From: Pogonophryne albipinna
Lineage: Eukaryota > Chordata > Actinopteri > Perciformes > Artedidraconidae
Assembly: GCA_028583405.1 (NCBI GenBank)
Contig: CM053264.1
Span: forward strand, 10,037,030 to 10,101,029
Length of the DNA: 64,000 bases
Reading direction: 5' to 3'
Under the pieces are notes generated by a model that saw nothing but the letters and a program-made list of their open reading frames with translations, was not told the DNA's origin and made no database searches. Positions 14,593-55,920 of this stretch are shown here, one piece after another (the first letter of the stretch is position 1; each line of letters starts with the position of its first letter). The position numbers and the translations under genes were made by a program.

Positions 14593-18067
<3,475 letters not shown>

Positions 18068-36262: not shown

Positions 36263-36356
36263 ATTCACTTATATTCCTCATCTCTTCCGTACTTTTTCCC
36301 CACATGAGTCTTCATGTGGGGAAAAAGTATGGAAGAGATGAGGAATATAAGTGAAT
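36263..36356. repeat. Near-perfect 45-bp hairpin with a 4-nt loop
   Basis: The left arm 36263-36307 and right arm 36312-36356 are reverse complements over 45 positions with one mismatch (CCGTAC in the left arm opposite GTATGG in the right). They are separated only by GTCT. The arms read ATTCACTTATATTCC... towards ...CCCCACATGA at the loop. No TIR-element core, transposase or T-run is present. Such a structure could be a recent snap-back duplication or template switch, a small foldback element, or the stem of a hairpin RNA; sequence alone does not decide. Confidence 0.95.
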
Positions 36357-36409: not shown

Positions 36410-36963
36410 AACATGATAAACTAGAGAATGCAATTCCTGAAGAAATTGCTAGTGGGAATGCTTTATGCTGAAAAGCTGATGCTAAACTGCTATGCTGAAA
36501 TGTAATGTGTAAGAAGAAAGTGAAGAATTTAGATTGAAATGATACATGAACACTGGGGGCTTGCATGTGTGATGAGAGAAGAAAAGAAAGTGAAAAGGCT
36601 TGGAAAAGCAGCAGAATATTTGAACTGCAAACTTTTGAACTAACTTGATGGCGAATGATCTGTCGCCATGGCAACGGCATTTGATGAATGACATCCATAA
36701 TACGCTTAGATGCGTTGATGGCTGCATCGTTTCTAAACCTGTGAAGTTTTGGGCCGTTTTCACTGAAGTTATGAAAAAACCGTGTTTCATGGCGAGCATT
36801 GTGTTGCTATGGCAACGGCATTTGAAGAAATCTCAAAACTGTCCCATAGATGTCTTCACTGCTGGACTGTTAGCACACATGTGAAGTTTGAGCACTTTTT
36901 GAACATTTTCATAGGAGTTAAAAAAAGGAAAAAAAGCTTGTACTACATGTTTCCTGTCGTTGC

Positions 36964-37071
36964 TTAGCGTCTGCGTCGGACCACTCTCTTGCGTCTGCGA
37001 GCAGCGAGGGACTTCTGAGGTCTCCTGCGTCTGCGCACGGGGCGAGCGGCTTGTCTGCGTTTGCTTGGCAT
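36964..37071 (-). CDS. Protamine-like (thynnin-type) sperm nuclear basic protein, 35 aa
   Basis: Protamines replace histones in maturing spermatids and compact sperm DNA by binding it through arginine clusters. This minus-strand frame is ATG (37069-37071) to TAA (36964-36966), 35 codons, without a break. Sequence layout: MPSKRRQAA, then RPVRRRRR at residues 10-17, PQKSLAA, then RRRKRVVRRRR at 25-35. It has 16 Arg and 3 Lys, and no Cys or acidic residue. Length, the MP start, RPV followed by five Arg, the Ala/Ser spacer and the VV-plus-four-Arg end match perciform fish protamines (tuna thynnins) and, more loosely, salmonid protamines, which are encoded by small intronless genes. Oddities: Lys at 4, 20 and 28 and Leu at 22 are unusual in an Arg-only family. 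An in-frame ATG lies immediately upstream (37072-37074), preceded by an AATT microsatellite. I see no TATAAA nearby upstream and no AATAAA or ATTAAA within 300 nt downstream. It could therefore be a live gene, a recent retro- or repeat-captured copy, or a fresh pseudogene. I am confident of the family but not of expression. Confidence 0.82.
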   Translation of the reverse strand: MPSKRRQAARPVRRRRRPQKSLAARRRKRVVRRRR

Positions 37072-37073
37072 CA

Positions 37074-37098
37074 TAATTAATTAATTAATTAATTAATA
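37074..37098. repeat. (AATT)n microsatellite just upstream of the protamine start
   Basis: A 25-bp run of TAAT/AATT units. It directly precedes the ATG of the minus-strand protamine frame and is the only AT-rich element in the position of a TATA box. Confidence 0.95.
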
Positions 37099-37870
37099 AT
37101 GTGGCCTTTTTGGCAGATTAACTAAAGGTTAACTGCTGTGGTGGGGAAAGATGAGGCTGAACTTACAATGGGGTTTAATGGAGACATGTTGAACGTTTTT
37201 GTCACTTCATGCCCTCAAGAGGCATTTTGTTTAATTATGTTGCTTAATTTATTTTTCATTTTTCAAGCTAAGAGATGTTTTCCTACGTTCCTCATGAAAA
37301 ATTATGTCTCAGGAATGTAGGGTTTGGGAATTATGGCAGGTTTAAAAGAAAATATGAAGGCAAAATTAAATCTGTCCTCCACTCTAGCTGTGACATCACG
37401 CACTCTAAAATCTGAAGAAGGCCTCTGTACCAAGGTCTGAACAAGGTTTAATATCTCTAAAAGTACGAATCAGATTTAAAAGTTGTGTTACACGAATAAT
37501 GTCAGAAAGATGTGTAGCATTCTAAAGTTGGAATGAGGTTTCTGAGTGAAAGTATGAAGGAGCAGTTAGAAGTTGCATGAAGATTGTTCAAGTCTGAAGA
37601 GTTTCTCCATTGACTTCCATGTTAAAAAATTGATGAATTATGGGATGTATCTCTGGAATTATGAAAGTTATGAATGAGAAAAGTAATAGCCACCGATTCC
37701 CGACCGAGCTGAACGTTTTGATGTTCGAACGGAGTTTCTGCGATGTGGAATGGGGGAGAAGTGCAAAATAACCCGGCGGAATAATAAAGAATTGTGTGCG
37801 TAGCGTAACAGATAGTGGGAATGCTGATGTGATAAACGGCGATCATTTACAACCCAAAAGGCCCCAGGCT

Positions 37871-51014: not shown

Positions 51015-51552
51015 TGTTCTGTTGGATAGGCTGGAAAGGTATATTACCACAGCTGACAACCAGTTTGGTTTTAAAAGAAAACATGGCACAGATATGTGTA
51101 TTTTTGCTTTAAAAGACATTATAGCAAAATATAGAAGCCATAATTCCACCATGCTTCTGTGTTTTATTGATGCTTCCAAGGCATTTGATAGACTGAATCA
51201 TTACAAATTATTTGACAAAATGTGCCAGAGAGGGGAACCCGAGTACATAATAAGGATCTTAGCCTTTTGGTATGCACATCAGACTATGCAGGTGAAGTGG
51301 GGCAATACTGTGTCTGAACATTTTTATGTTGGTAATGGGGTCAAGCAAGGTGGGATTTGATCTCCTTTGTTGTTTAATCTGTACATGGATGATCTGTCTA
51401 GGAAACTGAACTTGTGTAAAACTGGCTGTCATCGGTGCTACTGTTGTCAACCACCTTATGTACGCTATGATTTAATCATCTTCTCCCCATGCAGTGCTGG
51501 CTTACAACAGCTTCTGAGGACTTGTTCCCAGTATGGCATTGATTTTAATATG

Positions 51553-51933
51553 AAAGGTGGGGTAGGTAAGTTTGAGAAACCGATTTGTGATACACTTTAT
51601 GTTATATTCCATGGAATGCTCTTAACATCCCGATAGCAATGAATATCTTAAGTGCTTTGACAAAAAATCCATAAAGAAATATCATCTGTGGAAGCCGTGA
51701 CGCTGTAAAAAGCACGACCAATCATCTGAGCCGGCTAAAGTAACTGGATGGCCTACCTGCCTGTCAGCCTTCCATCTGTGCACAAACTTATCTCGTGCCC
51801 TCATTGGTCATGGGCGCGTTCGTGTGTGTTGGAGGAGGGGCTCTGTAAGGAAGTGGCAGATTTCTTCCTTCTGTGTATTTTCAAATTCTACCGCACTCGA
51901 GCTGGTTTCTCCGAAATTACCTACCCCACCTTT
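51553..51933. mobile_element. Nested non-autonomous TIR element inside LINE C
   Basis: A 381-bp element with inverted ends: AAAGGTGGGGTAGGTAAGTT... on the left, and on the right ...AATTACCTACCCCACCTTT. The inverse of the right end reads AAAGGTGGGGTAGGTAATTT, and similarity extends to GAGAAACC in both. There is no transposase frame. It separates two halves of a LINE reading frame, which proves insertion after the LINE arrived. The flanks TTTTAATAT and TTTAAGTAT may be a diverged target duplication of about 8-9 bp (hAT-like), but TIR and duplication overlap in sequence, so I leave the superfamily open. Confidence 0.85.
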
Positions 51934-54089: not shown

Positions 54090-55920
54090 GATTTAATTTC
54101 AAACCTTTATTTAATCAGATTGTTGCCATTGAGATCATAGATCTCTTTTTCAAGGGAGACCTGCAGCAATTAGGTTCCACATGAAACATAAAACAATAAA
54201 GGACATCATACATTATATTTACAGGATACATTTACATACTTATAGACATTTACATGTGCCCATAGTATCAACGAGCATTTCATTTAGACTTGCTTTAAAA
54301 ACATGCAGAGGAATGAGATTGCTCAGTTTTAATTCTTGCTGAAGATTGTTCCAAGCAAGTGGAGCTGCGCACATAAAAGCTGTCTTACCTAAGACAGTCC
54401 TTGCTCTTGGCACATCTAACAATACTACATCATGCGATCTCAGACAATAGCTGCTTGCAACTCTCTGTGTTATCAGAGAGCAGATATAATACAGGAGTTT
54501 ACCCAACAAAGCTTTATAAATAAACATGTACCAATGACTGAGCCTCTTTACAGTAAGTGATGGCAAACCTGCCTTGGCATACAGGGTACAGTGATGTGTA
54601 AGTGCGCTGTGATAGGCGGCATCTAACTTGTTCAGGCAATAGGCAGGTGCATTCATATACAACAAATCACCATAGTCCAGTACAGGTAAAAAGGTCACAG
54701 TGACTAGCCTTTTCCTGGCCTCAAGCGAGAAACAGGACTTGTTACTGTAGAAGAAACCTAGTCTAACCCTCAGCTTTTTAAGCTTTTTTTAAGGTTATTG
54801 ACATGAAGTTTAAAAGTAAGACAATCATCAAGCCAGATACCTAGGTATTTATAACAGGCAACCACTTCAAGTACTTGTCCTTGCATAGTAACAATATCTA
54901 AAACAGGCTCTGGTGTCTTTTTGGCTTTTGAAAATAGCATTACCTTGGTTTTATCAACATTTAAAAGAAGCTTAAGCTCAGCGAGCTGAGTCTGAATAAT
55001 GTTAAAAACAGCCTAATTTAACAGCAGCCTCCTTATTGGAGGGACCTGCACAGTACATCACGGTATCGTCCGCATAGAAATGTAAAGTAGCTTCATCCAC
55101 ATTTTCACCTAAACTGTTGATATATATATGGAGAATAAAAGTGGACCTAAAACAGAACCTTGAGGAACACCATTAGCAATGTTTAACCACTCAGAAGACA
55201 GCCCATCAAAGTGAACACATTGGGACCTTTCAGAGAGTAATTCACAAACCACCCCACTGCATGGCTGGATATGCCAATACTAGCCTCTGCTTTAAGATGC
55301 GATGATCGACGGTATCAAACGCTTTGGAAAGGTCAACAAATAGAGCTGCACAACTCTGCTTATTATCTAAAATAATCGTAATGTCATCCACCACTTTCAT
55401 TGTGGCAGTAATGGTGTTGTGTTGCTTTCTGACGCCTGACTGATGTTTAGACAGGATATTATTTTTACATAAAAACTCCTTTACTTGTTCACTCACTAGG
55501 CGTTCGAGCATCTTCGCCAGAACTGACAATTTAGAGATTGGCCTATAGTTATTTAAAATAGTTGCCTCCCCTCCTTTTAGTGAAGGCAAGACATAAGCTG
55601 ACTTCCATACTGTTGGAATTGTGTTTGTGCTGAGGGAGAGGTTAAAAAGAGAAGTGAGAGGTGGAGCAATAAAATCTGCAGCTATCTTTAAGAAGAAAGG
55701 TTCTACGTTGTCCGGGCCAGCTGGTTTCTTAGGATCTAACTTGGTTAAGGCTTCACGAACAACATCAATAGTAAAAGGAGTAAAACTGAAAGGATTTTCC
55801 AGACCACATTGTTCAGAGTCACGGATTGGGGTGTTCACAGAAGCAGAGTTATAAACAGAATCAAACAGAGAGTACTGATGCAGTATGTCCAAATCAAACA
55901 ACTTCACTGTTACACTGTCT
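54090..55920 (-). mobile_element. LINE B copy 2, nearly complete RT, 5'-truncated
   Basis: The longer copy of the family also seen at 13.86-14.59 kb, here on the minus strand. From 55907 leftwards it holds RT fingers, palm and thumb and the C-terminal domain, then a 3' untranslated tail ending, on the minus strand, in GATTAAATAAAGG at about 54107-54120. The insertion is about 1.8 kb. The 5' endonuclease half is absent; the break near 55910-55920 is the usual 5' truncation of LINE insertions. Confidence 0.92.
54240..55907 (-). pseudogene. Broken LINE B reverse transcriptase
   Basis: Minus-strand blocks in order: LDPKKPAGPDNV and ILNNYRPISKLSVLAKMLE (fingers), FVDLSKAFDTVDHRIL (motif A) up to 55242, where a stop follows. 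The next blocks are QCVHFDG, NGVPQGSVLGPLLFS (motif B, about 55130-55180), a one-base frame change near 55120, then HFYADDTVMYCAG (motif C, about 55060-55090, YADD intact). Further on come LLLNVDKTKVMLFSKA, YKYLGIWLDD, GFFYSNKSCFS, and from 54698 the FLPVLDYGDLLYMNAPAYC to LGKTAFMCAAPLAWN region. All main motifs survive, but the frame is broken at least at the 55242 stop, near 55120 and near 55015. Closest relative in the window is 13873-14294. Confidence 0.92.

Follow-up and report, generated by a model that had tools for sequence, protein, structure and literature searches.

A 35-codon Arg-rich frame of Pogonophryne albipinna is probably a fish protamine coding sequence, slightly unusual for its Lys residues

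The locus described here raises the question of whether a short, Arg-rich open frame on the minus strand of a Pogonophryne albipinna contig (CM053264.1) encodes a sperm nuclear protein and, if so, whether such a gene is still in use or is a copy on its way to decay. We analysed it within the whole stretch of DNA in which it lies (64 kb, here called the window), and favour, with a probability of about 0.6, the reading that it is a single-exon percomorph protamine coding sequence of the thynnin type, most likely still encoding a sperm nuclear protein. The features at the frame itself are the following.

36964..37071, minus strand: protamine frame of 35 codons, its TAA stop within the span, product MPSKRRQAARPVRRRRRPQKSLAARRRKRVVRRRR (translation, ORF list)
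37074-37072, minus strand: alternative start, a second in-frame ATG that adjoins the main ATG on its 5' side (MMPSK...; ORF scan and sequence reading)
37072..37101, no strand: palindromic TTAA-rich tract adjoining the start on its 5' side (opposite-strand self-match; overlaps an inverted pair)

The original prediction, of an unbroken minus-strand frame running from ATG to TAA over 35 codons, with 16 Arg and with Lys at three positions, was borne out: translation of 37071-36964 gives MPSKRRQAARPVRRRRRPQKSLAARRRKRVVRRRR followed by a stop, and the 34 residues after the Met include 16 Arg and 3 Lys (positions 4, 20 and 28). The intactness of the frame and its length are thus read directly from the DNA. 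With the upstream ATG included, the longest ATG-started version found by the ORF scan has 36 codons, and only 2 sense codons lie between that ATG and the next in-frame stop on its 5' side. Arg is encoded by 8 CGC, 6 AGA, 1 AGG and 1 CGA codons, and Arg and Lys together make up a fraction of 0.559 of the product without the Met (0.543 with it).

Such richness in Arg exceeds chance. The maximum over all open 34-codon stretches of the window is 16 Arg, reached in the protamine frame, and the next best stretch has 9; in Markov versions of the window the top count per 34 open codons averaged 7.7 at order 1 (maximum 9, n=60) and 8.2 at order 3 (maximum 11, n=60). A low-complexity tract of the (CGCAGA) kind that merely happens to read as Arg, unrelated to protamines, could be imagined from the repetition of CGCAGA in the codon list and from a 15-base direct repeat within the frame (copies at 36985 and 37021), but we give this origin a negligible probability: none of the 120 Markov versions exceeded 11 Arg per 34 codons, against 16 in the frame, and, for four protamines taken in turn (one published sequence, three presumed ones), the frame matched better in residue order than 20000/20000 shuffles that kept its composition. 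Chance or a simple-repeat origin is ruled out for practical purposes by these shuffles and Markov controls, and Tandem Repeats Finder, at a score of 50, likewise reported no array at the frame.

An Arg-rich composition alone is a weak argument for family membership, and it was the order of residues that was tested, by alignment and by shuffling the frame's own residues. As query we used salmon protamine (salmine), with the sequence as printed in PMC11818168. In tblastn against the window (filters off) this query matched the protamine frame from end to end with 60% identity and an E value of 1.1e-9, the database searched being the 64-kb window alone; the next match in the window reached E 0.058 with partial query cover, and no second protamine copy was seen there. 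In global alignment the frame and salmine scored 94, a value attained by 0/20000 shuffles (mean 47.3, sd 7.2, maximum 88), and Arg clusters in conserved order are common to the two. The cluster layout and the match to a published protamine are therefore, like the intact frame, direct observations, and we conclude from the sequence comparison that the sequence is, almost surely, that of a fish protamine.

Beyond the layout of the Arg clusters, the frame shares RPVRRRRRP identically with the salmine of PMC11818168; salmine differs in being two residues shorter, in having GG for VV and more Ser, and in its lack of Lys. For the perciform protamines thynnin, dicentrarchin and mugiline, presumed sequences were used; against them the frame has 26/34 identities to a thynnin-type consensus, 25/34 to dicentrarchin and 20/34 to mugiline, with 0/20000 shuffles as high for each. 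Like the presumed thynnins and dicentrarchin, the product has 34 residues after the Met, P at position 1, RPVRRRRR, a break of AA or AE after an S, and an RRR-RVVRRRR end; unlike them it has Ala for Ser before RPV, Pro for Tyr/Thr and Leu for Thr, and five Arg positions of the consensus are changed (three to Lys, one to Gln, one to Ser). Mugiline beta, the mullet protamine (also a presumed sequence), shares the RVVRRRR end, and is unlike the frame in being one residue shorter, in having RPI for RPV, and in having Arg as its sole basic residue.

The elements QA-RPV, S-AA and VVRRRR, set against the presumed sequences, probably place the frame in the thynnin (perciform) subtype. The claim of a thynnin-type protamine can thus be divided: membership of the fish protamine family stands on the full-length order match to published salmon protamine, and the thynnin subtype comes from presumed sequences. 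We treat the family as a tested result and the subtype as a strong lead, because the presumed perciform sequences were not found in print. A search of open-access papers gave no match to RRRRRVVRRRR, and neither VVRRRR nor ASRPVRRRR was among the matches listed; RPVRRRRR did occur, in the matches examined as part of a salmon-type protamine.

Searches of more general collections added little. With an E limit of 10 the product had no Pfam match, a miss of little weight since no Pfam model of teleost protamines is known to us. Nor was there a match among solved structures, a candidate in a protein search for orthologues, or an RNA family (Rfam) at the gathering score. Disorder is expected of a 35-residue Arg-rich chain.

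Taking the frame as a real protamine homologue, we predict that it is probably functional, and regard it as possible that it is a diverging copy or a relic (either a duplicate lying among repeats where genes are few, or a leftover in a histone-reverted species) that has stayed open by luck. The five replaced Arg of the presumed consensus are compatible with such a copy. When non-synonymous changes at Arg codons are weighted, only 0.04-0.06 of them give a stop; a short frame evolving neutrally can thus remain open for long, and its being open is in itself little proof. A Pfam scan of all six frames over 15001-59999 (45 of the 64 kb; stops as X; E limit 0.01 in one section and 0.1 in the others) found reverse transcriptase pieces and no other known domain, as would fit gene-poor surroundings, although short exons could escape such a scan. 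The basic fraction of the frame (0.559 without the Met) lies just under 0.562, the lowest in a set of 34 fish protamines with an observed range, which is not a rule, of 0.562-0.704 (PMC7126135). Sperm of gilthead seabream have no protamines (PMC9391476).

The kind of substitution and the base composition of the frame stand on the other side. Under six mutation settings, the neutral expectation for the share of Lys among changes of Arg was 0.05-0.17, and the probability of at least three Lys in five changes was 0.001-0.037, in a test that rests on the presumed relatives and on inferred ancestral codons. This over-representation of Lys among the inferred replacements of Arg speaks rather for positive charge having been kept by selection than for lost constraint. 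Moreover, the frame is the CpG maximum of a CpG-depleted window: its 108 bases hold 12 CpG, and of 5325 108-base stretches (step 12 bases) none has more and only 2, both overlapping the frame, have as many. The observed/expected ratio for CpG is 1.13 in the frame, 0.45 and 0.63 in its 1-kb flanks and 0.44 in the 64-kb window. In methylated vertebrate DNA, CpG without constraint decays; given 1.13 against 0.44, the CGN codons for Arg have therefore not decayed. The argument depends on the methylation state of the frame, and the high CpG suggests constraint until lately, a recent arrival or a lack of methylation.

Signals for transcription are sparse. TATA[AT]A is absent from the 1.5 kb upstream of the frame (one TATAA lies at -1423), as are TGACG and CGTCA elements in the same 1.5-kb scan, and AATAAA is absent from the 1.5 kb downstream, where the nearest variants are CATAAA at +497, AATATA at +689 and ATTAAA at +1249. 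The lack of both TATA[AT]A and AATAAA would fit a relic. Among 1200 minus-strand control positions of the window, 385 were without TATA[AT]A in the 1400 bases upstream, 151 without A[AT]TAAA in the 1200 bases downstream, and 34 without both; the joint absence is thus unusual, each absence alone is a weak argument, and neither is decisive against a gene. One feature of the 5' flank bears on where a promoter might lie.

37136-37153, minus strand: splice-acceptor-like site, a pyrimidine tract followed by CCACCACAG, about 60 bases 5' of the start (sequence reading)

With a distant promoter, the 5' leader might contain an intron, to which this candidate acceptor would belong. On the 3' side of the stop, sequence reading showed no poly(A) tail of the kind left by a retrocopy.

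Returning to the favoured reading of a protamine still in use, we infer transcription, translation, a nuclear role and a tolerance of Lys in place of Arg. The replacement of histones by fish protamines is an established mechanism, which we extend to this frame. In spermatids the chain of 34 residues, its Met removed, would take the place of histones; the Arg clusters (RRRRR, RRRKR and RRRR) would offset the charge of the DNA phosphates, while the chain would be able to follow the DNA by bending at its short breaks without charge (QAA-RPV, SLAA and VV), the predicted outcome being a compact and silent sperm chromatin.

On this evidence the frame is a probable further member of the fish protamine family, slightly unusual for its Lys. 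The type of sperm nuclear protein varies in a scattered way across fish, with protamines that come and go by lineage (PMC11607694, citing Saperas 1997; PMC9391476). Lys in a fish protamine preparation has a parallel in purified pufferfish protamine, for which PMC10780564 reports 36.90% Arg and 27.02% Lys, although a mixed preparation may lie behind these values. An intact frame that bears Lys may serve as a test case, for Arg drifting to Lys while the protein is in use or for a protamine on its way out. Genes of protamine size are shorter than the usual length limits of gene finders, and counts of protamine loss may therefore be inflated.

Finally, we considered whether the frame could have come to its place within a mobile element, given a pair of short repeats that bracket it.

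36450..36462, no strand: left copy of the 13-base direct repeat TAGTGGGAATGCT (repeat search)
37813..37825, no strand: right copy of the same repeat (repeat search)

The pair is possibly the edge of a repeat element or a target-site duplication. Pairs of 13-base direct repeats are uncommon, occurring in 2/31 stretches of 2.2 kb in the window, and one of the two, judged from the coordinates, is the frame's own stretch. The flanks of the frame presumably resemble dispersed fish repeats. A unit of about 1.4 kb (36450-37825), one of many dispersed copies, would then carry the frame, and such elements would have moved protamine sequences about fish genomes; we hold this to be very unlikely, blastn having found no second copy of the flanks in the window at E 0.01, and the window having no full-length second copy of the frame. 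Were it true, mobile units would offer a mechanism for the patchy occurrence of protamines across fish, and the Lys-bearing copy would be a passenger between working gene and relic. Patterns from the flanks gave 0 matches in viral and genome contigs, as did flank DNA against phages and plasmids, which was expected since these collections hold no fish, and which carries no information on copies in fish.

Several other repeats were observed in the window. The 3' flank of the frame has a 44-base direct repeat (36645-36688 and 36786-36829, 80% identical, core ATGGCAACGGCATTTGA), and at 36263-36356 there is a near-perfect hairpin, by its look a small inverted-repeat element, with 45-base arms that are 98% complementary and a 4-base loop spacing. 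The reverse transcriptase pieces are an RVT_1 match at 51046-51555 on the plus strand (E 1.5e-17), a remnant of a LINE-like element, and another at 54836-55556 on the minus strand (E 3.3e-16), also LINE-like, with a weak continuation in another frame that falls below the Pfam cut-off (E 0.00087). A 151-codon ORF at 59-514 on the minus strand has, by eye, a reverse transcriptase core (YADD), and a perfect CA dinucleotide array of 119.5 copies occupies 17188-17426.
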